Virus record (IMG/VR): IMGVR_UViG_3300003885_000010
Coordinates: 1-43,034 of that record
DNA length: 43,034 nucleotides
From: a virus
Reading direction: 5' to 3' (one strand)
Shown here: positions 9,402 to 32,515 of the stretch, piece by piece
How positions within the stretch are numbered: position 1 is the first letter of the stretch
Layout: each line of letters starts with the position of its first letter
The notes under the pieces: model-generated
What the model was told of the DNA's origin: nothing
What the model saw: the letters and a program-made list of their open reading frames with translations, nothing else
Databases searched by the model: none
Made by a program: the position numbers and the translations under genes

Positions 9402-9421
9402 AATTTTTCTCTTAGTTTTAG

Positions 9422-11692: not shown

Positions 11693-11693
11693 A

Positions 11694-12326: not shown

Positions 12327-12344
12327 GTTAAACTCTCCTCATTA

Positions 12345-12368
12345 TCTCTTTCTCTTTCTCTTTCTCTG
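12345..12368. repeat. Hexamer microsatellite (TCTCTT)x3.8
   Basis: Nearly four head-to-tail copies of TCTCTT in the 49-base gap between the primase-helicase stop and the phosphoesterase start. On the transcribed leftward mRNA this is a purine tract, GAGAAA repeats, just upstream of the phosphoesterase ribosome site. It may be a spare ribosome-binding or ribosomal-protein-binding tract, or simple slippage. Confidence 0.8.
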
Positions 12369-12375
12369 TCAGTCA

Positions 12376-14022: not shown

Positions 14023-14537
14023 TCACACACTCCCTTAAATTCACCAGCTTTTATAAGCTGAAAGTTAACAGGTCTACTCTGGCAGTTCTCAACACAAACA
14101 TTTATGTACCTACTATCAACCTCGTCATCCTTAAGCTTGACTGTGTTTTGATGTACATGCCCATGTATATTCTTCCTGCCCCTCAACTCGTCAGGGTGAA
14201 TAGGTGAGTGAGTTAGCCAGTATCCTTTGTACCTAACCATACCTAGAACATCTTCAAAGTACTTAGCGTACACATCTAGCTGTAAGCAATCGTGATTACC
14301 TCTGACTAGGATCTTCCTAGCAGGTATCTTATCGAGCATCTCCATCTTCTCTATCTCGAAGCAGACATCACCTAGTATATACAGGATATCTCTCTTACTA
14401 GAGCACACAGTAGCTATGCTATGTATCAACATAGCATCATGTTGTTCAGTAGTATCACCTAGCCTCAGGTCTCCACTGAAACCAAGGATGTTCTTGTGTC
14501 CTATATGAAGATCTGATATGAAGTATACATTACTCAT
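14019..14537 (-). CDS. Metallophosphoesterase, small form, 172 aa
   Basis: Signature motifs are FISDLHIGHKN, LGDVCFE, LVRGNHD, HSPIH and IHGHVH, all in the expected order. This is the compact phage/YfcE-like size class and not a duplicate of the 210-residue enzyme. The ATG at 14537 is chosen because GAGGAAG lies upstream; the longer frame starts inside the preceding gene. It overlaps the neighbours on both sides by a few bases, so it is co-expressed with the primase-helicase. The substrate is unknown. Confidence 0.87.
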   Translation of the reverse strand: MSNVYFISDLHIGHKNILGFSGDLRLGDTTEQHDAMLIHSIATVCSSKRDILYILGDVCFEIEKMEMLDKIPARKILVRGNHDCLQLDVYAKYFEDVLGMVRYKGYWLTHSPIHPDELRGRKNIHGHVHQNTVKLKDDEVDSRYINVCVENCQSRPVNFQLIKAGEFKGVCE

Positions 14538-14877
14538 CTCCATCTTCCTCGACAAAAGAGTCTGCGTATACCTCTGTATAAGCTCTTCTAAAGTCTGTCA
14601 ACTCCTTTATAAAAGTGTCTAGCTTGTCCAGCCTCTCAGTAACTTCTTCTTCTGTAGCAGCAAAGAAGCTTATATTTATAGTCGAGTTACAGTCTGTAAC
14701 TCTCAAGTTTGCCCGAACCTTCCCTTTGGCCTTTTTAAGGGACATCTCCATCTTCTCTGTAGCGCTCATCTCCCACCAATTCTCGGGTCTGTCTAGTCCT
14801 GTCTTAACATACCAACAAGCAGAACCAAACTCGTTCTCTTTCTCACCTAGGAATGCCTTACTAGATCTCTTCATCAT
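14530..14877 (-). CDS. Hypothetical protein, 115 aa
   Basis: GAGGGG lies just before tandem ATGs. The protein has a beta-type core (KVRANLRVTDCNSTINISFF) and a long C-terminal helix (EEEVTERLDKLDTFIKEL). The codons for RVTDCNS hold a perfect copy of the phage-wide palindrome. No family was recognised. First gene of the replication block, lying about 195 bases beyond the sigma gene and separated from it by a terminator. Confidence 0.7.
   Translation of the reverse strand: MMKRSSKAFLGEKENEFGSACWYVKTGLDRPENWWEMSATEKMEMSLKKAKGKVRANLRVTDCNSTINISFFAATEEEVTERLDKLDTFIKELTDFRRAYTEVYADSFVEEDGDE
14686..14700. promoter_or_regulatory. Palindrome site 1, GTTACAGTCTGTAAC
   Basis: Perfect 15-bp dyad, extendable to a 19-bp palindrome (GAGTTACAGTCTGTAACTC). 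It lies inside the coding sequence of the 115-residue protein, about 150 bases upstream of the small phosphoesterase start. Same element as sites 2-9; putative operator. Confidence 0.75.
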
Positions 14878-14962
14878 CTTTGCCCCTCATCCGTACGTAA
14901 CCTATCACCTGTCTATTAGTATACACATAGCCATGAGCTAAGTTGCAAAAAACTACAGACAA

Positions 14963-14998
14963 TAAAAAACCCAGACAGCATTACCTGTTTCTGGGTCA
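14963..14998 (-). terminator. Intrinsic terminator after the sigma factor gene
   Basis: On the - strand, ACCCAGA and TCTGGGT (14969-14975 and 14990-14996) pair, with an inner CAG/CTG, followed by six T. It lies about 75 bases past the sigma gene stop. It should separate the sigma transcript from the replication genes, at least in part. Confidence 0.85.
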
Positions 14999-15073: not shown

Positions 15074-15565
15074 TTATTGTAGCTCTTTGGCTATAAAATC
15101 TCTAGCTCTTTTTAGTCTGGACTTTACACAGCCCTCTGTTATACCAAGATGAGTAGCTATGTTCTTATACGTCATACCTTCTACTTCCCTTAGTGTGTAC
15201 ACATTCATGTACTTACTATCAAGCTTGTTGATTGATCCAACAAGTACAGCCTCAACTTCAGCTGCAATAAGAATATCCTTTGGGTCTGCTAGTAGCTCAG
15301 TATGTTCGTTGTCGTACACCTCACTTCTGTAAGATATAAAATTCTTCTGTGCTTTGTAGAAGTTCTTCAGCACGTTAAAGGTTATCTGATATAACCATGT
15401 AGACAAGGAATACTTGTTATCATAGTAAGCCGAGAAACGGTGTACTTTTATAAAGACTTCTTGTACTAGATCCTCAGCACTGTCTCTATCTTTAACCCTC
15501 CCCCTAATCATCGTTAGGAGTTTTGGTTGGTAGGTCTTATAGGTCTTGTCAAAATCAATAGACAT
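15074..15565 (-). CDS. ECF-type sigma-70 family factor, 163 aa
   Basis: Has the two domains of an extracytoplasmic-function (group 4) sigma factor and nothing else. Sigma-2 spans about residues 5-75, with the core-binding pattern AEDLVQEVFIKVHRF and the promoter-melting pattern LSTWLYQITFNVLKNF. Sigma-4 spans about 110-160, with TLREVEGMTYKNIATHLGIT and the recognition helix EGCVKSRLKRARDF. It would direct host core RNA polymerase to phage promoters. The ATG at 15565 is preferred over 15574 because AGGGGA lies 9 bases before it and the predicted leader is very short. No anti-sigma gene follows; a terminator does. No phage RNA polymerase gene exists in this closed genome. Confidence 0.92.
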   Translation of the reverse strand: MSIDFDKTYKTYQPKLLTMIRGRVKDRDSAEDLVQEVFIKVHRFSAYYDNKYSLSTWLYQITFNVLKNFYKAQKNFISYRSEVYDNEHTELLADPKDILIAAEVEAVLVGSINKLDSKYMNVYTLREVEGMTYKNIATHLGITEGCVKSRLKRARDFIAKELQ

Positions 15566-15584
15566 TATCAACATCCCCTATATG

Positions 15585-15620
15585 AGTATACAGAAAAAGC
15601 CCAATAAGTTTCAAAAATAA
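15585..15620 (-). promoter_or_regulatory. Promoter A, upstream of the sigma gene (candidate ECF promoter)
   Basis: On the - strand, TTATTTTTGAAACTT is followed by TGTATACT. The distance from TGAAAC to GTATAC is 16 bases. The same two boxes occur before the late arm (26073-26109), with 17 bases between. TGAAAC is the form of -35 box used by several ECF factors. It also reads as TTGAAA-18-TATACT for the housekeeping sigma, so both are possible. Transcription would start about 12 bases before the ATG at 15565. Confidence 0.65.
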
Positions 15621-15639
15621 ATTAAGAAACTACTGGGCT
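15594..15639 (-). terminator. Intrinsic terminator upstream of the sigma gene
   Basis: On the - strand a long stem, AGCCCAGTAGTTTC paired with GAAACTTATTGGGCT, encloses a 13-base AT loop and is followed by TTTTT. It ends transcripts from the small early genes upstream. The -35 box of promoter A is built from its loop and second arm, so termination and sigma gene initiation share the same bases. Confidence 0.85.
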
Positions 15640-15661
15640 AAGGCAGGACTCTTGTCATAGC

Positions 15662-15717
15662 TAGTAGAGTCTGACGAGATACCTGCATAATACCAAGTAC
15701 CTCATGCGACTCTACTA
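15662..15717. other. Nested hairpin
   Basis: TAGTAGAGTC (15662-15671) pairs perfectly with GACTCTACTA (15708-15717). Inside, GAG.TAC pairs with GTA.CTC around a 14-base loop. It lies between the 52-residue gene and the terminator before the sigma gene, in a stretch with no gene. It could be an mRNA 3'-end processing or protein-binding element. Confidence 0.55.
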
Positions 15718-15741
15718 CTCGCCAGATCACCTAAGCCGCTA

Positions 15742-15900
15742 CTAAAGTAGTGCGAATACTTCAGCGATCTCTGTTAACTCTGGCTTTATAACTACGCTGT
15801 ACAGCAGTGCTGCTTGATTAAGCATCAAGCGTACCGTATGAAATAACTCATTACTAAACGGTACTGTTACTGGGTGTAAGCTTAAGAATCCAATATTCAT
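15742..15900 (-). CDS. Hypothetical small protein, 52 aa
   Basis: The ATG lies 3 bases past the stop of the 94-residue membrane protein gene, so it is probably translationally coupled; its own ribosome site is weak (GAGTAACCTATG). Sequence begins MNIGFLSLHPVTVPFSNELF and contains a moderately hydrophobic helix (LMLNQAALLYSVVI). Two hairpins (GCTTGAT/ATCAAGC and GTACCGT/ACGGTAC) lie within its coding DNA. No family was recognised. Confidence 0.6.
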   Translation of the reverse strand: MNIGFLSLHPVTVPFSNELFHTVRLMLNQAALLYSVVIKPELTEIAEVFALL

Positions 15901-15903
15901 AGG

Positions 15904-16188
15904 TTACTCTGTCTTCGTGAAGAAGAGTGTTAAAAGCATGATACTGAGTACAGTACCTAAAGCCCACGATGCGTTAATAAGATATGCACCTTCAAGCTCC
16001 GAGTAGATACCATAAGCATTTACTGCTGTTAAGACTGTCATACCCGTATAGAGGATACGACGTTTAAAGATGCCAAGGGGTGTGGGACTGTATAGAACGA
16101 CAGCCCCGCCTTTGCCTTTGCTTCCTTTTGTTTTGACACCAATGTGTGTAACTTCGGCATTCTTTTCTAGTGTTTTTTGAGTGCTCAT
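15904..16188 (-). CDS. Small membrane protein, two spans, 94 aa
   Basis: Strong ribosome site AAGGAGG, 7 bases before ATG. The N-terminal 40 residues are Lys/Gly rich and hydrophilic (KTKGSKGKGGAVV). Two hydrophobic segments follow, about residues 45-62 (LYTGMTVLTAVNAYGIY) and 70-88 (INASWALGTVLSIMLLTLFF). It probably sits in the inner membrane. No family was recognised. It is placed just upstream of the sigma gene, but a terminator separates the two. Confidence 0.7.
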   Translation of the reverse strand: MSTQKTLEKNAEVTHIGVKTKGSKGKGGAVVLYSPTPLGIFKRRILYTGMTVLTAVNAYGIYSELEGAYLINASWALGTVLSIMLLTLFFTKTE

Positions 16189-16316
16189 AAGCGCCTCCTT
16201 ATCTGTTAAGATTAGTTGATCGGTTAGGTGCAGCTCAGGTGTTTCACGAATTAGAGTCCTTGTTGAGAGGGTACTCTCATCCCCACTCAGGTACTACAGA
16301 CAATTACAGTGCGATA

Positions 16317-16565
16317 TTAGTGTACTGTAGAGGAAATATCAACCCCCTTTAAACCACTACGATACCTAGGCATTACGTACTCGACATCATAACGTTCAGC
16401 GATGCCCCGTAATCCTTCGTAGTACTCATCATCAAAGATGCCTTTACGTACAGTTACCTCATGCTTGAGCCGTAACATATCAAAGTCAATCAACATGCAC
16501 ATATGCACAGGACTAAAAGAGGCTTGAGAATCAAACAGAATTTGCGAAGTTAATTCGTTATTCAT
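16317..16565 (-). CDS. Hypothetical protein, 82 aa
   Basis: The ATG at 16565 (MNNELTSQIL) has TTAGGAG 7 bases upstream; the longer frame lacks a ribosome site. Soluble, with a mixed alpha/beta look (DDEYYEGLRGIAERYDVEY). The gap to the next gene (16189-16316) shows only a short GAGAG/CTCTC hairpin. No family was recognised. Confidence 0.65.
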   Translation of the reverse strand: MNNELTSQILFDSQASFSPVHMCMLIDFDMLRLKHEVTVRKGIFDDEYYEGLRGIAERYDVEYVMPRYRSGLKGVDISSTVH

Positions 16566-16665
16566 TTTATTTCTCCTAACATTTGAAAAGAAAAGTACAG
16601 CTAGACTGTCCCAATCACGACCGATGCTACACGCCAACAGTTGATGGCATCACAGGTAGACGGCC

Positions 16666-16878
16666 TTACTTTATTGAGATAGTCTCCTTCCTTTCATACT
16701 GCCTGTCCATTACAGGATAGAGTGTCATGTGGTATGACAACTCCACCTTCCCTTCATTAGCGTCTAGTAGGTTGCCATTACATGGCACATCCTCCACCGC
16801 ACCCCTACCAGAGTGTCCTCTTGCACCGAACAACGCTTGCATGAAGATGATAACGATATTGAGTATATGTATACCCAT
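16666..16878 (-). CDS. Small protein with N-terminal membrane anchor, 70 aa
   Basis: AGAGGAG lies 8 bases before the ATG. Residues 3-19 (IHILNIVIIFMQALFGA) are hydrophobic, and the rest is polar with a basic end. The palindrome at 16910 lies 32 bases upstream of the start codon, a typical operator position. No family was recognised. Confidence 0.65.
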   Translation of the reverse strand: MGIHILNIVIIFMQALFGARGHSGRGAVEDVPCNGNLLDANEGKVELSYHMTLYPVMDRQYERKETISIK

Positions 16879-16909
16879 AAGGTTCTCCTCTCTATTGGTT
16901 TATGTTAAG

Positions 16910-16924
16910 GTTACAGTCTGTAAC
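16910..16924. promoter_or_regulatory. Palindrome site 2, GTTACAGTCTGTAAC
   Basis: Perfect dyad in the leader of the leftward 70-residue gene, 32 bases before its start codon. A CCTATC/GATAGG inverted repeat lies just beside it. Putative operator. Confidence 0.8.
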
Positions 16925-17142
16925 TTGCTTACTCCTATCATGTATGGATAGGTATAGCATCAATACTGCAACCACCTAGTCAAGTCTCTATTGAAGAGTG
17001 GAGACTTAGTACAACACTCACGGATTTGCAATCCGCCCTTGTATCACAGCATTACGGTTACATTACCTTCTGTGACCAAGCACCACTACCTCTGCCATTA
17101 CTTGTCACTGATTGTAGGTGACAATGGCATGGGTATTACGTT

Positions 17143-17184
17143 GGTATAACATAACCTACCTAATAAGATAGGTTATAGTATACC
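17143..17184 (-). other. 16-bp stem hairpin right after a stop codon
   Basis: GGTATAACATAACCTA (17143-17158) pairs with TAGGTTATAGTATACC (17169-17184), 14 of 16 positions matching, with a 10-base loop. It begins directly at the stop codon of the 75-residue gene on the - strand. No T-run follows, so RNA processing or mRNA end protection is more likely than simple termination. Confidence 0.6.
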
Positions 17185-17412
17185 TTACCTCCTAATATAT
17201 TCAATGAATTTCCAGTACTCTATCTGTAGGACAGCATGAAGGTGAGAGGATATTACACCACCGCCTAACACGTAGTCCACTAGCAACGCCGTCATAATAG
17301 CCACGAGTGTTGCTATAAACATCCTGTACAGTACTGTACCTACTGCTTTTATGGCAAATCCTATGCCAGTAAAAAGCAGGTCAATCTTCCTAAACAACGT
17401 CAGGGTTTTCAC
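17185..17412 (-). CDS. Small membrane protein, 75 aa
   Basis: GTG start with GGAG 7 bases upstream, overlapping the preceding gene by 23 bases. Hydrophobic stretch from about residue 12 to 50 (LLFTGIGFAIKAVGTVLY and MFIATLVAIMTALLVDYVLG), giving two membrane spans. No family was recognised. Confidence 0.65.
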   Translation of the reverse strand: MKTLTLFRKIDLLFTGIGFAIKAVGTVLYRMFIATLVAIMTALLVDYVLGGGVISSHLHAVLQIEYWKFIEYIRR

Positions 17413-17662
17413 TGGCAGGCTCCTTGTCTAGATAAGCTTTCAGACTACTAGCCATACGTTCTCTGGCCACTGTCTTACCATCTGCATATCCCTCAGCATA
17501 GGCGTTCTCTGTCGAACACGAGAGTTCGGCGTGTACTAGAGTAAGTTGGCTAACTGTTAACCTACAATCCTCTAGGATGCCTATGGTATCCTTACCTATC
17601 TCCTCCACTAAGATCAAACCTGTGTTGTTTGCAAAGTCTAAAACGACTCCAAAGGTTTTCAT
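17390..17662 (-). CDS. Hypothetical protein, 90 aa
   Basis: AGGAGGAA lies 7 bases before the ATG. Soluble; the C-terminal helix contains AYAEGYADGKTVARERM, a coiled-coil-like stretch. It overlaps the membrane-protein gene downstream. Its mRNA leader carries the nested CTTAAGG structure (17693-17786) and palindrome site 3. No family was recognised. Confidence 0.65.
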   Translation of the reverse strand: MKTFGVVLDFANNTGLILVEEIGKDTIGILEDCRLTVSQLTLVHAELSCSTENAYAEGYADGKTVARERMASSLKAYLDKEPASENPDVV

Positions 17663-17692
17663 TGGTGTTCCTCCTCTTAAGTTAACACCCGA

Positions 17693-17786
17693 GACAGCCT
17701 TAAGGCTCTATCGTCCGCTCACCACGGATACCCTTAAGGGCGTGGCCCTAGACGCATAACGCTTGACCACTGCTTAAGGCTGTGTC
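17693..17786 (-). ncRNA. Structured leader RNA with three CTTAAGG loops/arms
   Basis: Outer arms GACAGCCTTAAG (17693-17704) and CTTAAGGCTGTGTC (17773-17786) pair over 12 bases. Inside, CCACG (17722-17726) pairs with CGTGG (17741-17745) around the self-complementary CCCTTAAGGG. The left outer arm is also part of the palindrome AGCCTTAAGGCT. The three copies of CTTAAG could exchange partners or pair between two RNA molecules. It lies in the leader of the leftward 90-residue gene. No known riboswitch class was recognised. Confidence 0.45.
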
Positions 17787-17844
17787 AGTTATCAACTTGT
17801 CGTTCTGTTGATATGTCTACTAGTTCGGAGATCTTACTAGGTGA

Positions 17845-17859
17845 GTTACAGACTGTAAC
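17845..17859. promoter_or_regulatory. Palindrome site 3, GTTACAGACTGTAAC
   Basis: Perfect dyad directly next to the left arm of a TAGGTGA/TCACCTA inverted repeat, 183 bases upstream of the 90-residue gene. Putative operator. Confidence 0.8.
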
Positions 17860-18014
17860 CTCTGCTGTATCAATCACCTAACATCTCTTACTCCTGAGAG
17901 TGTACGTAACCTTTCGCATGAGGGGTAGAAAGCCTCAGAGGTTTCAAACTCCTGCTACTTATGGTCGATGGGGTGCACACACAGCAGTTAGACATAAAAC
18001 TATGGGACTAGCAG

Positions 18015-18452
18015 TTAGTGCAAGGTGTACTTGCTCTTTAAGAGTACATCAAGTAGAGTCACAGAGTTATTTTCTTTCCCATGATTCTCTTTCTCTTTCT
18101 TCTGCTTTTCCTTACCCTTGTTTTGGTTTCCATTCTTGTCATAGCCATCACGAATTGACTTGTACTTAACACCGACTCGCTTCTCAAGTATAGATGTATC
18201 CACTTGAGTCTCATAGTATGCTTCTGAGTTATCCAACAGGTACAACTGCAAAGTCTCTAGGTCATCACCCACGTTTTTAGAGGCTATCGTATTGAGATTT
18301 GACAGCTTCATGTATTTGGACTTAGCTTCCTGTAGTAGAAAATCAAGAGCACGTACCTCTTCAGAGAGGTTACGAAATGGTGCGTAACGAAGGGAATACC
18401 AAGGCTTATAAGTTGCCATTAGATCCCCATTGGTAATAGTACGCCTAAACAT
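18015..18452 (-). CDS. Hypothetical basic protein, 145 aa
   Basis: Very strong ribosome site (AGGAGGTGAT) just before the ATG at 18452. The N-terminal 100 residues look helical. Residues 110-135 are a Lys/Glu/Asn tract (NKGKEKQKKEKENHGKENN), a probable disordered nucleic-acid or protein contact. The strong ribosome site suggests high expression early in infection. No family was recognised. Confidence 0.75.
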   Translation of the reverse strand: MFRRTITNGDLMATYKPWYSLRYAPFRNLSEEVRALDFLLQEAKSKYMKLSNLNTIASKNVGDDLETLQLYLLDNSEAYYETQVDTSILEKRVGVKYKSIRDGYDKNGNQNKGKEKQKKEKENHGKENNSVTLLDVLLKSKYTLH

Positions 18453-18689
18453 ACATCACCTCCTACTAATTAGAATTGAATTAAAGGATTTGCTACACTG
18501 TAATTGTCTTACTGATTAACTAGCTGTGTATCCTGTATGGAGAGTATGTGCTTAGATGCACAGACACACAGGTGCAAGGGTCGCTTGCTTATTTCCACAG
18601 CATGGACTGTTCCGCTTCTATTGTTAGGCTTCACTAAGTACAGTCAACTTCTTCCTAGATGTTACACTCACTGTTTTCCTTTATCGACC

Positions 18690-18800
18690 TTAGCCTTTGG
18701 GCCTAGCCAGTGAGAGATTGTTGATTTTGCTTAGTTGTTTATGGCCCTCGCTAAGATCAACGGTCTTCGTGCCAATGTGGTTGGCTAAAATATTTATCAT
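18690..18800 (-). CDS. Doubtful small ORF, 36 aa (frame open to 18905)
   Basis: From the ATG at 18800 the product begins MINILANHIGTKTVDLSEGH. The same frame is open upstream for another 35 codons with protein-like composition (GNPYTYIIRIGHTSKAHSG), but no ATG and only a TTG at 18815. A short frame MRSALLWKERP with a +1 relation ends just where the upstream part begins, next to AGGAGAG. It could be a small gene, a shifted gene or a decayed one. Confidence 0.25.
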   Translation of the reverse strand: MINILANHIGTKTVDLSEGHKQLSKINNLSLARPKG

Positions 18801-18992
18801 GCGGTCTAGTACCAACTCCCTGCCGCTATGAGCTTTACTCGTGTGTCCTATTCTTATGATGTAGGTGTAAGGATTACCTACGGTCTCTCCTTCCAGAGCA
18901 AGGCACTACGCATACGTTGTATATAGCGGAGTGTTGTACCTTACCTGCTGTAAGTGGCGAGGTGCGCTGCGTCCTCTTAACCGGTGTAGAGG

Positions 18993-19007
18993 GTTACAGT
19001 CTGTAAC
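18993..19007. promoter_or_regulatory. Palindrome site 4, GTTACAGTCTGTAAC
   Basis: Perfect dyad in the non-coding stretch between the 591-residue gene (ends 19101) and the 145-residue gene. A CCTCT/AGAGG hairpin abuts it. Putative operator. Confidence 0.8.
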
Positions 19008-19100
19008 TTGTTAAAACATACAGCTCATAAAGAGCTATGGTGGTTTGTCTTCTTGTTGATAAAACTCAAGATACATTACGTACACCTGTTGTGTTGCGCT

Positions 19101-20876
19101 TTACTGGATACCACTATTGTGCTTACGCAATGCCGCTATAAGCAGACTAGCGTGATCTTTCTTTTTCTGAAGCGCTTCAATGCGCCTTGTTTTAGTAACC
19201 TGTTGCTTAGCCTTCAGTATAGCAAAGGCTTTGTCACGTTTAACAGCAAAGGGATTAACTTCTGTATTCATTACACCTACTGCTTTATCCAACAGTTTAA
19301 CTCCTTGTGCTAGGACTTTATAGGTGCCTGTCTTACGCAGCTCATGCTCGCGATACCCCTCCTTAGAAGTAGAAAGGTAAGCCTTGAGTACTGTTGCACG
19401 TTGTAGCAGTTTCTTCCAGTCGCCATCGTAGATAGGGGGAGCAATACGTGAGCCTAGCCCTTTCAATTCAGTGACTACAGTGGTGCTGTGGAGCAAGGCA
19501 ACGTTACACCCTATTCTACGCAGATCATTCACCTCTTGCATTACACGCAATGCTCGGCGAGGTTTCCTATATTCTGTGTTGTTAGCCCAACGTCTATACG
19601 TGCGACGTTCATCACTGACAACGATTCGTGTGTTGCATTCTTTATCGAAATGCTCTCGTACTTCACCCACTCTACGTGAATCATAGGGGCTAAGTCGAAC
19701 AAAGGCTTTCAAAGGGTCATCCCTAAACTGCACCTTAAACAGTTCAAACTGATTTGCAAGTGTTTTTACTGTGGCCTTGCTTGTTGCACTTGCGGTTTTA
19801 CTACGGTGTAAGTACATATCCCAATTCATGAGACTGATAGTACCCTCCGCATTTTCTAACTCTCTTTCAAGAGCTTTTATCTTAGTCCCTTGACACGGTG
19901 TGTCATTGCCCATCAAGACAAGGACTTCTTCCTTAAGCCCCGCATTCTCCTTCAAAAGCAAAGAGACTTCATAATCCTTACGAGAGCTTAAGACTGTTAC
20001 ACCCCTAGCTGTAGTGAAGGGCTTTGCTATAGCCTCCCAATCCACATGCCAAGCACCTGCTGAATAGTACGTGTACAACGTAACAATATCAGGCCAATCT
20101 TCCGGCTGAAAGTTATTGATATACCACTGGATGTCTTTGACAGCGGGTGTAAAGCCCGGGTCATTCCTATAGAACGAAGACATTGTGGTACCATCCATTG
20201 TACCATTAGGTAACTTAGGGGTTACAGTCTGTAACTTCTCCCTTACTGCTGGCGGATACATGCCACCTTTAAGGAAGTCAGAGATAGGTCGTCCACTAGG
20301 GGTTAGCCCCGTCTTCTCCTCTCTCTTTATACGCAAGTACTCAGTCCACGTAATTACCCCGTGTGACTGCGCTATGTTTGTAGGGCCAACGAACTTGCGA
20401 TCATCGTTAGCTGCTTTGGTTTTCTCAGTACGCTTACGTACCGGACAACCTTTAGCTTCCCACTCTGAAAGTGTTAAGCTCGTAGTGCTACCATGATGAC
20501 GTGTATCAAGAAGCGTTAACTCCCTGATAATATAAGCTGTTTCCTCTCCTTCACTTGGTGCCGCAGGATGTGAATCACCCCAATACCTCATCATGTTTAT
20601 TTCCCACTCTAACTCCTCGCTTTTGGAGCGCGTGGTTACAGTCTGTAACCTACCTTCTATAGGTATTACAGGTGCCTTTACCTTGTCCTGTTTTGGAGGC
20701 GGAACTAGGTATACATCCTCATTTAATAGAGGATCAATCAACCTGTTGTTTAGGGCAACAGTTTTTTTCTTGAATGGAGGTGGCTCAGGCCCAGTATCAG
20801 GGATAATGTGGCATATCTTGCCACTCCATAGAGTCTTGTAACGACTCACTTTCTTTTGGTGTGGTTTCCTCTTCAT
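19101..20876 (-). CDS. Large unknown early protein, 591 aa
   Basis: The ATG at 20876 (MKRKPHQKKVSR) has GAGGA 9 bases upstream. The longer frame to 20927 has none. It is by far the largest gene of the early region. The first 50 residues are basic and Pro rich (PEPPPFKKKTVALNNR). The middle contains aromatic segments (KDIQWYINNFQPEDWPDI), and a coiled-coil-like stretch (KIKALERELENAEGTIS) lies near residue 345. The C terminus is Lys/Arg rich (KRDKAFAILKAKQQVTKTRR), so nucleic-acid contact is plausible. Two copies of the palindrome lie in its coding DNA, both read as Leu-Gln-Thr-Val-Thr. No polymerase, nuclease or other enzyme motif was found. Confidence 0.7.
   Translation of the reverse strand: MKRKPHQKKVSRYKTLWSGKICHIIPDTGPEPPPFKKKTVALNNRLIDPLLNEDVYLVPPPKQDKVKAPVIPIEGRLQTVTTRSKSEELEWEINMMRYWGDSHPAAPSEGEETAYIIRELTLLDTRHHGSTTSLTLSEWEAKGCPVRKRTEKTKAANDDRKFVGPTNIAQSHGVITWTEYLRIKREEKTGLTPSGRPISDFLKGGMYPPAVREKLQTVTPKLPNGTMDGTTMSSFYRNDPGFTPAVKDIQWYINNFQPEDWPDIVTLYTYYSAGAWHVDWEAIAKPFTTARGVTVLSSRKDYEVSLLLKENAGLKEEVLVLMGNDTPCQGTKIKALERELENAEGTISLMNWDMYLHRSKTASATSKATVKTLANQFELFKVQFRDDPLKAFVRLSPYDSRRVGEVREHFDKECNTRIVVSDERRTYRRWANNTEYRKPRRALRVMQEVNDLRRIGCNVALLHSTTVVTELKGLGSRIAPPIYDGDWKKLLQRATVLKAYLSTSKEGYREHELRKTGTYKVLAQGVKLLDKAVGVMNTEVNPFAVKRDKAFAILKAKQQVTKTRRIEALQKKKDHASLLIAALRKHNSGIQ
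20221..20235. promoter_or_regulatory. Palindrome site 5, GTTACAGTCTGTAAC
   Basis: Perfect dyad inside the 591-residue gene, coding for Leu-Gln-Thr-Val-Thr (REKLQTVTPK). Same element as the intergenic copies. Confidence 0.75.
20635..20649. promoter_or_regulatory. Palindrome site 6, GTTACAGTCTGTAAC
   Basis: Perfect dyad inside the 591-residue gene, 414 bases from site 5 and in the same frame, so it again codes for Leu-Gln-Thr-Val-Thr (GRLQTVTTR). Confidence 0.75.
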
Positions 20877-20986
20877 TGCAAAGTCCTCAATTACGACCCT
20901 TGCAAGAGGATAGAGACTTCCTAACAAATCCCTATACTCTTACAAGGGACAGTAAATTAGTGAGAGCGAGTAGCCTATAACTCAAG

Positions 20987-21001
20987 GTTACAGACTGTAA
21001 C
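20987..21001. promoter_or_regulatory. Palindrome site 7, GTTACAGACTGTAAC
   Basis: Perfect dyad 110 bases upstream of the 591-residue gene. It lies within an outer inverted repeat, AGAGCGAG (20963-20970) and CTCGCTCT (21001-21008). On the - strand the site is followed by TTATAGG, a possible -10 box, so it may overlap a promoter. Confidence 0.8.
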
Positions 21002-21310
21002 TCGCTCTTACGCTTGTTACAACTAGCCTCATCCTGTAACTGGTACAGGGACTAGCCTTATTGTACCCTCTCTATGAGACTATGAACCGCCTCGTAAACC
21101 AGAAGCACAACGACGTATCCTTACACATGGCAAACCCTTTCACCATAGTCCTATGGTGTTGTATAGACAACCTATCTCTAGCAGACCGAGGCGCACGCCA
21201 TGCCCTCATAACACTAGCGCATTAAGTTTATGCTATCAGACTATCTTCATAGGCGATTGCTTTAGTGTCCTTTGTTTTGATTTTGCTAGCACATCGGGGC
21301 ATGATCACAC

Positions 21311-21325
21311 GTTACAGACTGTAAC
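21311..21325. promoter_or_regulatory. Palindrome site 8, GTTACAGACTGTAAC
   Basis: Perfect dyad in the hairpin-rich non-coding stretch, enclosed by CTAGCAC (21286-21292) and GTGCTAG (21352-21358). Confidence 0.8.
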
Positions 21326-21680
21326 CTCATACAAATAATGCTAGACTTTCAGTGCTAGACCATAACGCAATAAGGTGCGGCTGTTATGGTGGACGTGTAT
21401 GCCCTGTTAGGGCTGCTATAGTGTAATGCGATTCATGCTTAGCATGTACGCCACTAATAAAGACAAGCCTTTACCTTGTAAGGTGTAGCACTACAGCCAG
21501 AGGCTGCTAGTGTGCTGCTTATCTAGCTTACACGAACAATAAGAACCGCCTACAGCGGCATGGCCTGCATTTCAACACACCTTTATGACTCATAATACCC
21601 CACCCTTCTGCCTTAGATCGGCAGGTGTGGCATGATACTTCCTATAAAACAATAAGCACAACGCAACAAGCCTTAAGAGC

Positions 21681-21730
21681 ACAACAGGTTAAAAACTTGT
21701 AGCTAACAACAGGTTAACAACTTCTAGCTG
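21681..21730. repeat. Tandem repeat, 2 x 25 bases
   Basis: Two adjacent 25-base units (21681-21705 and 21706-21730), 22 of 25 positions alike, each beginning ACAACAGGTTAA and holding CTAGCTG or GTAGCTA near the end. They lie 19 bases past the stop of the 222-residue gene on the - strand. Confidence 0.8.
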
Positions 21731-21748
21731 CCAATAGGTAGCAAGGGC

Positions 21749-22417
21749 TTAGCTGGTGGCTGTTTTCACATGACTAAACTTACCCCCCACTTTTTGCAGC
21801 TTACCAATTGCCCCTTCCGCTCCCTGAATAACACGCAAGGCTTGGTCTTCAGGCAATTGAGCAAGGTGTTTAATTAAAATGCCTAGACGTGCCTTCAATT
21901 TGTCAGGCAGGTTGCTTGTTACAACTGAAATGGTTGACATATCCTTATTAGTGGACTTGGCAGTGCCCCCATCTTTCTTCTTACCGCTAACAGTACCACC
22001 AGCACTGTTACCACCGGTTACTTTATCGGCCGCCTTAATATACGATGTATACGTGTCGAACTTACGAGGGTCTACCCCATTTTTAATACCTCTGCGCAAG
22101 TTAGACTTACGCACCTTGTAGCTACCAACATACTTTGAAAAAGTCATGGTTAGATCGTTGGTTAACTCGATAACCTCAAGGAGTAGGTTGGCTTCCATTT
22201 CGCCAGTGGCTTTAAGAAAAGCCGTATCAATAGGGTAGACTTTGTTACCCTTTCCGTCAATCTTAGGGATAAATGCACTATCCCCTAACTCTAACACTTG
22301 CTCTTTTAGCAAAGCGAAGAAGTCTTCAGCAAGGCCACTTGCTTTAATTGCGTGGTCGAGATAAGAACGACCAACGCTATCATAGTGCGATACTTCTTTT
22401 TTTACTTCTACAGACAT
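21749..22417 (-). CDS. Hypothetical protein, 222 aa
   Basis: The ATG at 22417 (MSVEVKKEVSHYDSVG) has AAGGAG 7 bases upstream. Two helical parts are joined by a Gly/Ser/Thr/Lys-rich linker at about residues 120-150 (GGNSAGGTVSGKKKDGGTAK). The C-terminal part is helical and basic (LPDKLKARLGILIKHLAQL). The shape suggests a two-domain binding protein with a flexible linker. A terminator lies just upstream, so it probably has its own promoter or relies on read-through. No family was recognised. Confidence 0.75.
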   Translation of the reverse strand: MSVEVKKEVSHYDSVGRSYLDHAIKASGLAEDFFALLKEQVLELGDSAFIPKIDGKGNKVYPIDTAFLKATGEMEANLLLEVIELTNDLTMTFSKYVGSYKVRKSNLRRGIKNGVDPRKFDTYTSYIKAADKVTGGNSAGGTVSGKKKDGGTAKSTNKDMSTISVVTSNLPDKLKARLGILIKHLAQLPEDQALRVIQGAEGAIGKLQKVGGKFSHVKTATS

Positions 22418-22452
22418 AGTATTCTCCTTAATCTGTAAGAAAGATAAGTAAC

Positions 22453-22501
22453 AAAAAGGCACTAGGAATACCCACGTTTTAAGTAGGTATTATGTCGTGC
22501 C
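22453..22501 (-). terminator. Intrinsic terminator upstream of the 222-residue gene
   Basis: On the - strand GGCAC and GTGCC (22497-22501 and 22458-22462) pair, with inner AATACC/GGTATT, followed by TTTTTG. It ends the transcript of the lipoprotein and small-gene cluster. Confidence 0.8.
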
Positions 22502-22576
22502 CTCTTGTTACACCTGTATTATTAAGGCACCAGCTTACACCACACCTTAACATGCCTATACTCTTCTTTAGTATAG

Positions 22577-22623
22577 GGCTTGCCAATAGACACAGCTATA
22601 AAACTGTGCCTATCAGTCAAGCC
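22577..22623 (-). other. Nested hairpin directly after a stop codon
   Basis: GGCTTG (22577-22582) pairs with CAAGCC (22618-22623). Inside, ATAG.CACAG pairs with CTGTG.CTAT around an 8-base loop. A second hairpin, CCTATACT/AGTATAGG, is at 22555-22577. Together with the terminator at 22453 this forms a three-hairpin 3' end for the small-gene transcript. Confidence 0.55.
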
Positions 22624-22740
22624 TTATATGGAGACTTGTAGCACTATGGGGTAGGCCAACGCTAGTGCGCCACACAACAGTATAAGAACTGACAATAGCA
22701 GTGCGCTACGTATCGTCCCCCGTACTTTCAGCTTTTTCAT
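22624..22740 (-). CDS. Small membrane protein, 38 aa
   Basis: The ATG overlaps the stop of the 20-codon gene upstream (ATGA), and GAGGAAA lies before it. A basic N terminus (MKKLKVRGTIR) is followed by one membrane span (SALLLSVLILLCGALALAY). The layout is that of a single-pass inner-membrane peptide. No family was recognised. Confidence 0.55.
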   Translation of the reverse strand: MKKLKVRGTIRSALLLSVLILLCGALALAYPIVLQVSI

Positions 22741-22799
22741 TGGTGTGTTTCCTCACTCTTAGGAAAGGTAAACAACTCAAAGACTGCTTTATCAAGCAT
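22737..22799 (-). CDS. Very small ORF, 20 aa
   Basis: The product is MLDKAVFELFTFPKSEETHQ. TAGGAGAGG, which includes the stop codon of the lipoprotein gene, lies 7 bases before the ATG, and its stop overlaps the next ATG. The tight spacing suggests it is translated, either as a peptide or to couple its neighbours. Confidence 0.45.
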   Translation of the reverse strand: MLDKAVFELFTFPKSEETHQ

Positions 22800-22808
22800 T
22801 AGCCTCTC

Positions 22809-23033
22809 CTAGGGTGTGAGTTGTGCCAAAGTTTTATCGTCTTCAACCACCATTACTACAAGTACGGCCTCTTCTTCCTGAGGCAGTACTTCAGGCGGAC
22901 TACGTCCAAGGTTTTCTTGCTTATGTGCACTTAATTTTTCTAAGCCTGCCTCGAGTTGCTTATCTATACATCCTGTCAAGGGAGCACAGGCAACAACCAA
23001 CAGGCAGAGAAACGCCGTTGTATATTCTTTCAT
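22809..23033 (-). CDS. Putative lipoprotein, 74 aa
   Basis: The ATG at 23033 has AAGGTG 6 bases upstream. The N terminus is a lipoprotein signal: MKEYTTAFLCLLVVACAPLTGC, with hydrophobic core and lipobox Leu-Thr-Gly-Cys near residue 22. The mature part is short and acidic. A short phage lipoprotein recalls outer-membrane spanins or superinfection-exclusion lipoproteins. It lies in the early region, which favours exclusion over lysis. The single-span 38-residue protein is encoded nearby. The function is inferred. Confidence 0.65.
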   Translation of the reverse strand: MKEYTTAFLCLLVVACAPLTGCIDKQLEAGLEKLSAHKQENLGRSPPEVLPQEEEAVLVVMVVEDDKTLAQLTP

Positions 23034-23073
23034 AGTTAACACCTTTCTTTATTAGTGACTGAATTGCCACAAT

Positions 23074-23094
23074 ATAACAGCAACACGCTGTTAT
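23074..23094. other. Perfect 8-bp hairpin
   Basis: ATAACAGC and GCTGTTAT with a 5-base loop, about 40 bases upstream of the lipoprotein start in the leftward mRNA. No T-run follows, so it is not a clear terminator. Confidence 0.55.
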
Positions 23095-23160
23095 GGGTTG
23101 ATACTGTGCGCCTTAGCAAGGGATTCGACTCTTTCAGTACCAACCTATAACAAAATGTTA

Positions 23161-23463
23161 CTAAGCTGCCTTAAGTTGCAGACCTAGCGCCCTTTCAATT
23201 CTAAGCACGATAGAGGCTACTACATGGGCCTTCCCCCCATGCTCCTGTACTTGGTCAAGGAATCTTATGTCTTTCTTTAAGGCATTCTTCCATCCTTCAG
23301 ACTTCCTTATGTGCCATAGGTTAGTGCGTTGTTCTCCTCTCGAGTAGGCCATGTGACCTTGTTGAAAATGAGGAACAAATGCACCATCTACCAGTTGTCC
23401 ACTTGTATGTAAGCTGCGCTCCCTTGCAAGCTTACCCGAAATTGTCTTGTTGACCTTACTCAT
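23161..23463 (-). CDS. Hypothetical basic protein, 100 aa
   Basis: The ATG at 23463 (MSKVNKTISGKLARER) has GGAG 8 bases upstream. Rich in Lys, Arg and His throughout (HIRKSEGWKNALKKDIRFL), with a C-terminal helix (SIVLRIERALGLQL). A nucleic-acid-binding role is possible, and it is one candidate for the palindrome-binding factor, but no helix-turn-helix is clear. Confidence 0.65.
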   Translation of the reverse strand: MSKVNKTISGKLARERSLHTSGQLVDGAFVPHFQQGHMAYSRGEQRTNLWHIRKSEGWKNALKKDIRFLDQVQEHGGKAHVVASIVLRIERALGLQLKAA

Positions 23464-23507
23464 ACCCTTTACTCCAAGTTGAAGTGTGATTGTCTCATGT
23501 ACGAACA

Positions 23508-23681
23508 CTAACTAACAGTTACAATTTTGTAATCTCTTTTATCGTATGCACTGGCAAACAAAGGGCATTTACCTTGCACACGAACAGAAGTTAATCCGCT
23601 CTTCCAATAGATAGAGTACTTAATACTATCTATGGTGTAATGGGATGCGCTCTTGCTTCTTCTAAAATTACCTTTGAACAC
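23508..23681 (-). CDS. Hypothetical small basic protein, 57 aa
   Basis: GTG start at 23681 with AGGAG 8 bases upstream, overlapping the preceding gene by 14 bases. The product begins MFKGNFRRSKSASHYTIDSI and looks beta-rich (KYSIYWKSGLTSVRVQG), with a net positive charge. The ribosome site, overlap and composition support a real gene. No family was recognised. Confidence 0.6.
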   Translation of the reverse strand: MFKGNFRRSKSASHYTIDSIKYSIYWKSGLTSVRVQGKCPLFASAYDKRDYKIVTVS

Positions 23682-23856
23682 GGCATGTACTCCTAAGTTG
23701 ATTAATGATAGGCATAGTTTTACGTCTAGTCACCTTCACCTTATAGCCTAGCTTAGTATAATAATCTTGATAGTAGTCAGCATTAGTTTTGTCTCTGCCT
23801 ACTTGCATACGGCGCAACACCTTGTCCGCCTTGTTTGATATGGTTAAGAGGTACAT
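23668..23856 (-). CDS. Hypothetical basic protein, 62 aa
   Basis: The ATG at 23856 (MYLLTISNKADKVL) has GGAG 6 bases upstream and lies one base past the stop of the gene before it. Basic, with aromatic residues (DYYQDYYTKLGYKVKVTRRK). No family was recognised. Confidence 0.65.
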   Translation of the reverse strand: MYLLTISNKADKVLRRMQVGRDKTNADYYQDYYTKLGYKVKVTRRKTMPIINQLRSTCRVQR

Positions 23857-23857
23857 A

Positions 23858-24079
23858 CTAATCTCCATACCTTGCATTACAATGGCTCTTAGCTGCCTTG
23901 AGTGTCTTAAATTGTGGAAAATGGCTCTTAGGGGCATACAACCCTTTTTTAAAAGGTTGTACCAACCACAATAAACCTTCAGAGGGTTTGACCTTAGTTA
24001 TAAACAAAGTATCTACCTCCTCCCCAGAAATTTCTCTACAGGTATAAAAACCAGCTTGACCCTTTTTAAACTTTAACAT
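23858..24079 (-). CDS. Hypothetical protein, 73 aa
   Basis: AAAGGG lies 6 bases before the ATG. Starts MLKFKKGQAGFYTCREISGE. Probably a small beta fold with a basic C terminus (KTLKAAKSHCNARYGD). Tightly packed with the next gene. No family was recognised. Confidence 0.65.
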   Translation of the reverse strand: MLKFKKGQAGFYTCREISGEEVDTLFITKVKPSEGLLWLVQPFKKGLYAPKSHFPQFKTLKAAKSHCNARYGD

Positions 24080-24102
24080 AAATTACCCTTTCGTTGGTTG
24101 AT

Positions 24103-24144
24103 CTTAATAATAGAGCCACACAATAACACAGCCCTATTATTAAG
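24103..24144. other. 11-bp stem hairpin between early genes
   Basis: CTTAATAATAG (24103-24113) and CTATTATTAAG (24134-24144) pair perfectly around a 20-base loop that can itself form a GC/GC extension. It lies between the stop of the 94-residue gene and the start of the 73-residue gene. No long T-run follows on either strand. Confidence 0.6.
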
Positions 24145-24164
24145 TTCATTACCGTTTTGTCATG

Positions 24165-24449
24165 TTACTCCTCACAAAACTTTAGAAAATCTCCTAACTC
24201 TACAGGTGACTGATTACACAAGTAACCTAAACGAGACCACTTATCAGTTAACCTGACAGCTTCCTTCAGTGACACAGGCTCAGGGGTATGCCTTTCGTGC
24301 TCTATGTAGCGGTCAACGTCTGCTTTCTTTACACGCAACCTCTCTTGCTTTGTGTTTCTCCTTATAACAAAGAGGCTCCACTTACAGGCATACACCATGA
24401 ACAATAGCGGCTCTACTGTAGGTGTGCGGGGTATTATACGCTTACTCAC
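24165..24449 (-). CDS. Hypothetical basic protein, 94 aa
   Basis: The GTG at 24449 overlaps the stop of the previous gene by 8 bases. Longer frames would run deep into that gene. The N terminus includes a hydrophobic stretch (VEPLLFMVYACKWSLFVI) and the middle is Arg/Lys rich (RRNTKQERLRVKKADVDRY). No family was recognised. The start is less certain than for its neighbours. Confidence 0.55.
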   Translation of the reverse strand: MSKRIIPRTPTVEPLLFMVYACKWSLFVIRRNTKQERLRVKKADVDRYIEHERHTPEPVSLKEAVRLTDKWSRLGYLCNQSPVELGDFLKFCEE

Positions 24450-24684
24450 AGCAACCACCGTTGCACTCGGATAGGAAGTAAGACCTGGCTCTTTCCTTGC
24501 GCTCCACTGTGTCAGTAACAGCCTTGGCCTGTTTAATGCTCCAAGAAGGGAGCACACGAAGGGTGGCTATCCTGTTAAGCTCAGTCCAGTAGGCAAAACG
24601 TGCTGTACTTATGTCTACCACAAACCTCCTTTTATCACTGTGTTTGAGTAGATTACGATAGAACTGTTCATTAAACTCTCTCAT
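24442..24684 (-). CDS. Hypothetical protein, 80 aa
   Basis: AAGGAG lies 7 bases before the ATG, and the start overlaps the upstream stop (ATGA). The C terminus is Cys-rich (SECNGGCCE). Otherwise charged and helical. No family was recognised. Confidence 0.65.
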   Translation of the reverse strand: MREFNEQFYRNLLKHSDKRRFVVDISTARFAYWTELNRIATLRVLPSWSIKQAKAVTDTVERKERARSYFLSECNGGCCE

Positions 24685-25040
24685 GACATACTCCTTAAGT
24701 CTTTTTTGATTTCAGCAAGTAAGAAATGAGCAAGAGAAAAGCGACGCTTACCGTACCTAGTACGCTTATCCCATTTGTTATAATAACCGTAGTGATGACA
24801 GCCATTTCCTTCTATAGGAAAGAAACCCCTCTGGCTTTCTTTCTTTGGCCCCCAACGTCCTGTTATGCTAGAGACAAAACTATAGGGTCTGGGATTATTT
24901 TGAATATCTCCTAAACATAGGTAATGACACAAACCCGCACCATACCAAAGACCTTCTTGTTTAGCGGCTACCTTAACACCTTCATTAAGTAACACCCTTA
25001 ACTTCCTCACCATTTCTTCTTTCTCTGCTTTAGTAATCAT
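24681..25040 (-). CDS. Hypothetical protein, 119 aa
   Basis: The N terminus is helical and charged (MITKAEKEEMVRKLRVLL). The middle is rich in Gly, His, Tyr and Cys (GAGLCHYLCLGD, EGNGCHHYGYYNKWDKR), which could bind a metal. The ATG overlaps the stop of the small membrane ORF (ATGA). Part of a tightly packed leftward early operon. No family was recognised. Confidence 0.7.
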   Translation of the reverse strand: MITKAEKEEMVRKLRVLLNEGVKVAAKQEGLWYGAGLCHYLCLGDIQNNPRPYSFVSSITGRWGPKKESQRGFFPIEGNGCHHYGYYNKWDKRTRYGKRRFSLAHFLLAEIKKDLRSMS

Positions 25041-25153
25041 GTAACACCTCCACCTTCAACCAAAGGGTAAATAACAACAGCCAGTAGAACAACACTGGCA
25101 ACACCAGCAACAACGCTTAAGCCCACTATCAACAGCAAGTCTCTGATAAGCAT
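25037..25153 (-). CDS. Small single-span membrane protein, 38 aa
   Basis: GGAG lies 10 bases before the ATG at 25153, and the stop overlaps the next gene (ATGA). The product starts MLIRDLLLIVGLSVVAGV and is one long hydrophobic helix followed by a short polar end. The overlap and clear membrane helix support a real gene. Confidence 0.6.
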   Translation of the reverse strand: MLIRDLLLIVGLSVVAGVASVVLLAVVIYPLVEGGGVT

Positions 25154-25188
25154 AATCTCTAACTCCAATTAAATTGATAGCTATATAG

Positions 25189-25266
25189 CTAGAGGCTATC
25201 AATATCTATATTCCGCATAATATACATATCCGTATATTGATGCGCCCATATGTCCTTCTCAAGCAT
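25189..25266 (-). CDS. Very small ORF, 25 aa
   Basis: The product starts MLEKDIWAHQYTDMYIMRNI. AGGGAGG precedes the ATG, although very close to it. It lies 36 bases upstream of the small membrane gene. Translation is plausible, and the function is unknown. Confidence 0.4.
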   Translation of the reverse strand: MLEKDIWAHQYTDMYIMRNIDIDSL

Positions 25267-25323
25267 TACCTCCCTACTTAAGAGGCTACCGAATGAGTCG
25301 GATTTAGTTAGGTTAACCCATAA

Positions 25324-25563
25324 TCAATAGCCCATTGTATCTATCTTTGAAGTTACGTTTCTTCTCTCTACTACAGGTAGGTGGTTCCAAGCGTCCATAG
25401 CATTATCCCAAGCTTTTTCGCCAGGTCTGGTGCAATCCTTTTCTTGGTCTACTAGCTCGTTATACTTTGCATCGTACTTAATGAAGCGGTTAACACCTTT
25501 CTGGTGTTTCTTGCTTAAAGCAGTGATGCTAATAGAAGAAGAAGGTATGTTGTACGTTTGCAT
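25324..25563 (-). CDS. Hypothetical protein, first gene of the leftward arm, 79 aa
   Basis: GAGG lies 8 bases before the ATG. A Ser/Ile-rich N terminus is followed by a charged helical middle (KKHQKGVNRFIKYDAKYN). Being nearest the divergent control region it should be among the first genes expressed. The ninth palindrome lies 117 bases upstream. No family was recognised. Confidence 0.65.
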   Translation of the reverse strand: MQTYNIPSSSISITALSKKHQKGVNRFIKYDAKYNELVDQEKDCTRPGEKAWDNAMDAWNHLPVVERRNVTSKIDTMGY

Positions 25564-25679
25564 GGTATACGCCTCAAGTCAGTTAATTACACCTATATAC
25601 AATGCCAAGTCCATACCAACTATAAAAACACTGTATAAATCAATGGTTTACAACATACCACTGTACATCTAGACAGTAA

Positions 25680-25694
25680 GTTACAGACTGTAAT
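25680..25694. promoter_or_regulatory. Palindrome site 9, GTTACAGACTGTAAT
   Basis: One base differs from the perfect dyad. It lies 117 bases upstream of the first leftward gene, in the position of an operator for the whole early arm. Confidence 0.7.
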
Positions 25695-25711
25695 GAGTAG
25701 TAAGGTAACAA

Positions 25712-25744
25712 AGATTGTTACATTAGGTAGCAAGGTAACAATCT
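25712..25744. other. 10-bp stem hairpin with GGTAACA repeats
   Basis: AGATTGTTAC (25712-25721) and GTAACAATCT (25735-25744) pair perfectly around a 13-base loop. AGGTAACA occurs three times between 25703 and 25753. It may be an iteron-like or protein-binding cluster. Confidence 0.55.
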
Positions 25745-25935
25745 AGGTAACATAGTGATCTAGATGAGAATGATTCCTATTTAGGTATTAACTATGTGTA
25801 ATTAGGTATATATGTGGCATATAGTGTGCTTTATTTTGGTATGAGGGTTTTGTAGCAAATAACGTACCATATCCACCCTAATTACTAGGAGATTGCCCAT
25901 AATTAATATATATATCAGTGACATATTAATTGCAA

Positions 25936-25954
25936 GGGGGAAGGGGGGTTGGGG
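25936..25954 (+). other. G-rich tract
   Basis: GGGGG-AA-GGGGGG-TT-GGGG in otherwise AT-rich intergenic DNA. It could form a G-quadruplex on the + strand or act as a polymerase pause. Confidence 0.6.
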
Positions 25955-26009
25955 CCATGCTTTTACTGCATTCGAACCCAAAAAATTACCTATAAATAAT
26001 TTTTCGTAA

Positions 26010-26034
26010 TAGCCTTGCCCTAAATAAAGTTTCA
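26010..26034 (-). promoter_or_regulatory. Possible promoter C, leftward
   Basis: On the - strand TGAAACTT (26034-26027) repeats the -35 core of promoters A and B and shares the following TATTTAG with B. At the right distance there is only TATTAC, a weak match to GTATAC. It could be an early promoter or a chance copy. Confidence 0.3.
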
Positions 26035-26072
26035 GAATTTAGGCTAATTAGGACAATTAAATTTATTTTCAA

Positions 26073-26109
26073 TTATTTTTGAAACTTTTTATTTAGTTTT
26101 GTGTATACT
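26073..26109 (+). promoter_or_regulatory. Promoter B, late arm (candidate ECF promoter)
   Basis: TTATTTTTGAAACTT (26073-26087) and TGTATACT (26102-26109) are identical to the boxes before the sigma gene, with TGAAAC to GTATAC spaced by 17 bases. Transcription would start near 26116 and enter the structural genes after a leader of about 127 bases. No other promoter as good lies ahead of the late genes. Confidence 0.65.
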
Positions 26110-26242: not shown

Positions 26243-26608
26243 ATGGTTGACAATACAATATTAAATCTAGGTGTAGGTGGCGACACCATTGCTTCGGAAG
26301 ATAGAGGTTGTGTTAAGTATCAGAAGGCTCTGATAGAGACAAATGACTCTGGCTCTATTGACGCCTTTGGTAGACTAAGAATATCTAACCATGAAACTAT
26401 TTTTGACAGCTCTCTCTTAAATGGAAGTAACGATCCTCTATTCTGTGAGAACAAGCAAGTGTCTGGGACTTCCACGTCTCCCACTACTGTCACAGCTGAT
26501 AAGCCTTATACAGATCTAGCTAGTGACACGGCTTACCTACATTTATTTAATGATGCAGGAGTGCTAATAGACTCAGGCAGCAGCTTCTTAGTGGCGGAGG
26601 ATACCTAA
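26243..26608 (+). CDS. Virion structural protein, probable tail/fibre base protein, 121 aa
   Basis: Contains SGSIDAFGRLRISNHETIFD. The DAFGRLR(I/V)S segment recurs at the N terminus of phage tail and structural proteins, where a phrase such as LFDSK follows. First gene of the late arm. The ribosome site (AAAGG) is distant, so expression may be modest. It ends in a TAATG overlap with the next gene, suggesting the three tail genes are made together. Confidence 0.6.
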   Translation: MVDNTILNLGVGGDTIASEDRGCVKYQKALIETNDSGSIDAFGRLRISNHETIFDSSLLNGSNDPLFCENKQVSGTSTSPTTVTADKPYTDLASDTAYLHLFNDAGVLIDSGSSFLVAEDT

Positions 26609-30317: not shown

Positions 30318-30344
30318 CAATTTCTCTTTACCTTTTCTGTTACC

Positions 30345-30364
30345 ATCTAAATCTACGTTTAGAT
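30345..30364 (+). terminator. Weak hairpin after the tailspike gene
   Basis: ATCTAAA and TTTAGAT pair with a 6-base loop, followed by CTTAAT instead of a T-run. It may reduce read-through from tail genes to terminase. Confidence 0.35.
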
Positions 30365-30390
30365 CTTAATCATTGTGGAGTGTTCTTTCA

Positions 30391-30918: not shown

Positions 30919-30926
30919 GAGTTTAA

Positions 30927-32513: not shown

Positions 32514-32515
32514 GT

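Follow-up and report, generated by a model that had tools for sequence, protein, structure and literature searches.

An ECF sigma factor gene and its putative promoters in a Zobellviridae-like phage

Described phage sigma factors and the layout of the window

Phage sigma factors that take the host core RNA polymerase to middle and late promoters have been proven for phiEco32 (gp36) and 7-11 (gp47) (PMC8948821). The Zobellviridae, the kin of SIO1, VpV262 and ICP2, are T7-like phages that lack the polymerase of T7, whose transcription "is regulated differently", and most members carry short terminal repeats of 74-138 bp (PMC9960094). The hallmark of ECF factors is AAC at -35 and CGT at -10, and the -35 boxes of known ECFs include ATTGAAACCTTT for SigW and GGAACTT for RpoE (PMC8103513), GGAACTT being the box of sigmaE (PMC8103513, PMC1804206, PMC4890791).

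The window, by which we mean the whole stretch of 43,034 nucleotides that was analysed, is laid out as follows, the assignment of the leftward genes of unknown function as early being inferred from their position.

6477..14877, minus strand: replication operon, downstream of the site named P-mid below
15742..25563, minus strand: leftward early genes of unknown function, mostly without family match, upstream of the terminator at the site named P-ecf below
26243..41541, plus strand: late arm with fibres, terminase, portal, scaffold, capsid and tail genes
269-6422, plus strand: late arm continued across the closed ends, with internal virion proteins and lysozyme

The replication operon comprises a phrog_12065 gene, phosphoesterases, primase/helicase, an RNase H-like gene, DNA polymerase A, a phrog_862 gene and an endonuclease. 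The window terminase is closest to Zobellviridae records, the genome measures 43 kb, and the window shows the Zobellviridae traits: structural genes of the T7 supergroup, a replication module on the other strand, a 91 bp repeat and no RNA polymerase. On such sequence traits we call the lineage Zobellviridae-like, no formal taxonomy having been run. The direct terminal repeat supports the initial annotation, which had described the genome as closed and lacking a phage RNA polymerase gene. The latter statement holds for single-subunit enzymes, none of which was found in the window using PF00940 while the T7 control was detected. No other kind of RNA polymerase was recovered in Pfam/PHROG scans of the larger proteins of the window.

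By analogy, the circuit proposed below would work like those of phiEco32 and 7-11, though with another type of factor, other promoter letters and a different gene order. Both are podophages without RNA polymerase in which the early and late arms are opposed and sigma sites lie before the middle and late genes, as they do in the window; 7-11 also has bipartite sites with N16 and a hairpin ahead of its sigma gene. However, these phages have C3 prolate heads and larger genomes and belong to another lineage, of which the window is not a member. Their promoter letters are different (tAATGTAtA; GTAAtg-16-aCTA), gp36 is devoid of region 4, no site matching the 7-11 sigma consensus has been found ahead of the 7-11 sigma gene itself, and no gp79-like sigma-70 inhibitor was recognised in the window.

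Small proteins of the sigma-70 family are also encoded by Zobellviridae isolates, which belong to the same broad group as the window.

L161 (GP100), 3138-3626, plus strand: sigma gene, annotated merely "Phage protein"
L164 (Klyazma), 2912-3391, minus strand: sigma gene
L162 (KZY1), 3337-3816, plus strand: sigma gene
L163 (1.264.O), 2885-3444, minus strand: sigma gene, split into two annotated genes
L137 (CW02), 10226-10711, plus strand: sigma gene (gp21)

In these isolates the gene lies between primase/helicase and DNA polymerase and the sequences are strongly diverged, whereas the ECF gene of the window precedes the primase and has a promoter-like site of its own. No promoters for the isolate factors were found in the literature examined. 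ECF-type factors had initially been considered unusual in phages of this kind, which is only partly right, since sigma-factor genes were already annotated in CW02, KZY1, 1.264.O and Klyazma and since phiEco32 and 7-11 offer a precedent. The "sigma-W" genes of crAss-like phages are likewise phage-borne, ECF-like and about 30% identical, but they belong to phages of about 100 kb from another lineage.

The ECF gene, its three sites and the adjoining terminators

The features around the ECF gene and at the start of the late arm are listed below.

15074..15565, minus strand: ECF sigma factor gene, with an ORF open to an ATG at 15574
15593..15639, minus strand: intrinsic terminator, hairpin 15598-15639 followed by TTTTT (-22.4 kcal/mol, z -4.0)
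14962..14997, minus strand: intrinsic terminator 3' of the ECF gene, immediately before P-mid (-20.2 kcal/mol, z -3.8, T6 tail)
15585..15617, minus strand: P-ecf, TTTTTGAAACTT-N13-TGTATACT, with the start codon at 15565 located 20 bp downstream
14918..14951, minus strand: P-mid, TTTTTGCAACTT-N14-TGTATACT, ahead of the replication operon
26076..26109, plus strand: P-late, TTTTTGAAACTT-N14-TGTATACT, with the first late gene 133 bp downstream

Pfam recovered Sigma70_r2 (1.7e-13, residues 12-77) and Sigma70_r4_2 (1.4e-13, residues 115-159) in the ECF ORF and no other domain, which bears out its initial description as a two-domain ECF sigma factor. The coordinates then given to the gene are also sensible, a GGGG ribosome site being better suited to the start at 15565 than to the ORF start at 15574. 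The protein fits the group 4 criterion (sigma2 and sigma4 only, linker <50 residues), exceeds the NCBIfam threshold for the sigma70-ECF superfamily, and has SigH, E. coli sigmaE and B. subtilis SigW as PDB relatives. It shares with RpoE and SigW the restriction to sigma2 and sigma4, and the -35 boxes of the window are similar to theirs (GGAACTT and TTGAAAC). It differs from these factors in having no recognisable anti-sigma partner and in presumably serving a phage programme, and the -10 of the window, TGTATACT, differs from the TCAAA/GTCAAA type of sigmaE. A co-transcribed anti-sigma factor is frequent among ECF factors without being universal; no anti-sigma family was found among the genes neighbouring the ECF gene, where small unknown genes remain.

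The string TTATTTTTGAAACTT occurs exactly at 15606-15620 (minus strand) and 26073-26087 (plus strand) and is followed each time by TGTATACT, confirming the pair of boxes that had been proposed at 15585-15620 (minus) and 26073-26109 (plus). P-mid is a third site, overlooked at that time, located between the terminator that follows the ECF gene and the gene starting at 14877, the first of the replication operon. The spacing from AAC to TGTATACT is 15 in P-ecf and 16 in both P-late and P-mid. Using a leave-one-phage-out matrix, trained solely on sites from other phages, P-ecf and P-late were the joint top sites of the window (25.3 each, at 15617 minus and 26076 plus) and P-mid ranked third (24.5, at 14951 minus). 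The next-best site scored 14.9, and the highest score in 600 randomised Markov genomes was 20.7; as a two-part site the motif far exceeds chance expectation. The long -35 string taken alone was rejected as evidence: it is AT-rich, and its 5 matches at <=3 mismatches, for 1.9 expected, were equalled in 6 of 100 shuffles.

The -35 box of P-ecf sits in the 3' arm of the terminator hairpin at 15593..15639, which the initial annotation did not mention, so that its conservation may be partly structural. Two relatives carrying an ECF gene, G004 and G005, likewise have a hairpin overlapping or abutting the -35 box of the ECF promoter. A strong hairpin is absent at P-late (z -0.1), and a hairpin constraint therefore cannot explain the shared box. 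Since terminators precede both the ECF gene and P-mid, early leftward transcription probably halts ahead of the ECF gene, and the ECF-type promoters, judged from these positions, would probably restart leftward transcription past the terminators.

Around the -35 of the late promoter, a dyad (CTAAATAAAGTTTC ... GAAACTTTTTATTTAG, window 26020-26095) was also noticed, the -35 box recurring there, weakly and in inverted orientation, at 26027-26041 (minus strand).

Related phages with and without an ECF gene

The initial annotation had proposed to look in related phages for the gene and the box pair. Both were found in G004 (IMGVR_UViG_3300008255_000181, with the late-arm start on L005) and G005 (IMGVR_UViG_3300032212_000060), whose ECF proteins are 42% and 47% identical to that of the window, respectively, and whose boxes occupy the three positions seen in the window.

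G004, upstream of the ECF gene: GGGAACTT...CGTATAGT
G004, downstream of the ECF gene: CGAAACTT...CGTACAAT
G004, upstream of the late arm: GCAACCT...CGTATACT
G005, upstream of the ECF gene: GGGGAACTT...TGTATAGT
G005, downstream of the ECF gene: AAGGAACCT...TGTATAAT
G005, upstream of the late arm: GGGAACCT...TGTATAAT

The spacing is constant within each phage (17, 17, 17 in G004; 16, 16, 16 in G005). When ECF and late sites were the sole training set, the top two sites in both phages were again the ECF and late ones, the third sites being weak by matrix. In the more distant carriers, the interval between the ECF gene and the primase contains two sites in L087, which share CGTATGTA, and two in L089, and the fragment L083 has one box 3' of the ECF gene. 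Counterparts of P-mid are thus present in G004, G005, L083, L087 and L089. A target-type site directly 5' of the ECF gene occurs in the window, G004, G005 and G026 and was not seen in L087 or L089.

In G026, whose ECF is 29% identical, GGAAC sites with TC at -10 were found at all three places (CGTCTAAA, TATCCAAA and GATCTTAC), as if promoters and factor had changed together. These sites were aligned by eye and were not the top sites in the scan across phages, and represent weaker evidence. With respect to the ECF hallmark letters, AAC is present in all aligned sites and TGT/CGT at the -10 of the window clade, from which G026 departs; that the window factor uses the AAC-type sites is inferred. 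By both terminase (100/100) and primase (100/99) the ECF carriers group as a single clade, and the position of the ECF gene before the primase is kept among them.

Further sequences resembling the box, at the end of polA and after the primase in G004, G005 and L083, were set aside as lying within coding sequence. The one at the polA end, which tracks conserved protein letters, falls in the conserved last codons of the DNA polymerase (AGTxLGSRCIIKG) at L083:5746 (plus), G004:5504 (plus), G005:30884 (minus) and G026:30363 (minus), and in G026 it shifts to the G026-type -10. It probably reflects a coding constraint, a hidden promoter for the next genes not being excluded.

A different box, GGAACTT/TTGAACTT-N14-TGTCTAAT, is found at or near the start of the late arm in sister phages in which no sigma gene could be detected, four of them near full length as judged by size (G018, G036, G037, G039) and four partial (G020, G022, G023, L079).

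G036, 45411, minus strand: sigmaE-type site
G022, 10746, plus strand: sigmaE-type site
L079, 264, plus strand: sigmaE-type site

Leave-one-out scans ranked this site first, apart from G018, whose late site came second, and G037/G039, where the late-start site is second to another on the late strand and a second sigmaE-type site lies inside the late arm. Its -35 letters match the sigmaE box GGAACTT, and its -10 matches GTCTAA-type sigmaE boxes. No hidden sigma gene was found in G018, G036, G037 and G039 with Pfam r2/r4_2 or with HMMs built from ECF and Zobellviridae sigmas. Apparent sigma matches in G031 and G032 were rejected, as they resemble a terminase-type helix-turn-helix protein and an HNH endonuclease, respectively. 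Neither box type exceeded chance in ICP2, SIO1, VpV262 and CW02. As the simplest reading, the comparison suggests that the sister phages use host sigmaE for their late arm; a phage factor that escaped recognition remains possible, and several of the records are incomplete.

The -10 is GTATA in the window clade and GTCTAA in the sister phages, and the change accompanies possession of an own ECF. It is possible, though we put it forward only tentatively, that the late genes were first under host sigmaE, as they would still be in the sister phages, and that the window clade then captured an ECF, shifting the -10 from TGTCTAAT to TGTATACT. If true, the capture together with the shift freed late transcription from the host envelope-stress response.

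Proposed circuit and alternative readings

The gene family, the sites, their positions, their conservation across phages and the lack of a gene for a single-subunit RNA polymerase are observed. With these elements, we consider it likely that host sigma-70 makes the early genes and that the phage ECF, with the host core, drives itself, replication and the virion genes. The factor would join the host core RNA polymerase and direct it to three TTG(A/C)AACTT-N13/14-TGTATACT promoters, those of its own gene, the replication operon and the virion arm. The early leftward genes would presumably be read by the host sigma-70 polymerase, mostly stopping at the terminator just before the ECF gene, and the first sigma molecules may come from read-through or from weak sigma-70 use of P-ecf. 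The factor would then feed back on its own gene and turn on the middle and late genes. The protein's recognition of the sites, the temporal order and the start-up route are inferred, in the absence of transcription, binding or genetic data. A switch from host-made early transcription to an ECF boosting itself and the late arm had been suggested initially; comparative evidence favours it and adds one target, the replication operon, the mechanism remaining an inference. Counting against the circuit, no sign of autoregulation was seen in L087/L089, and if transcription began some 7 nt past the -10, the ECF gene of the window would have only a very short leader. No clear sigma-70 early promoter was identified in 25.56-26.11 kb.

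Alternatively, host sigma-70 could use the sites as ordinary promoters in which the spacer is long, with the ECF acting elsewhere, for instance on host genes. TATACT and TTGAAA are sigma-70-like, P-ecf being also a fair sigma-70 promoter (TTGAAA-N18-TATACT, 10/12) and P-late reaching 10/12 with a spacer of 19. However, what is conserved in the relatives is xAAC and GTATA at fixed spacing, their would-be hexamers (TTGGGA, TTGCAA, TTGGGG, spacers 20-21) do not make fair sigma-70 promoters, and relatives without an ECF gene show a different -10, TGTCTAAT, so that we regard this explanation as unlikely. We give no more credit to the sites being read mainly by a host RpoE/sigmaE-type ECF, which the phage factor would supplement, or replace under some conditions. 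This proposal draws on the GGAACTT-N14-TGTCTAAT sites of the sister phages and their RpoE-type -35, but the GTATA of the window clade is tied to owning an ECF, and the window sites do not stand out when scanned with a sigmaE-type matrix.

Least credible is that the 15.6 kb string would be a mere terminator arm and the 26.1 kb match an AT-rich coincidence. The former does lie inside a strong hairpin and the string alone is not significant, but the two-part site recurs at a third place and in relatives, far beyond chance, and the late copy is outside any strong hairpin; the box as terminator arm only was rejected on these grounds. The preferred reading, the phage ECF acting at its own gene, replication operon and virion arm, bears on the timing of late transcription in Zobellviridae, which was left open: one clade now has a testable circuit of three promoters and a factor. 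Host sigmaE use is a second testable prediction, for the sister phages, and the phages form a natural series in which the sigma factor seems to vary in step with its promoters.

Ahead of the early genes, Fur-box-like inverted repeats were observed in G004 (TGAGAATGATTATCA) and G026 (TGAGAATCATTCTCA), located in these relatives near 2470 of L005 and at the end of L110, and a degraded copy is present in the window at about 25765-25785.
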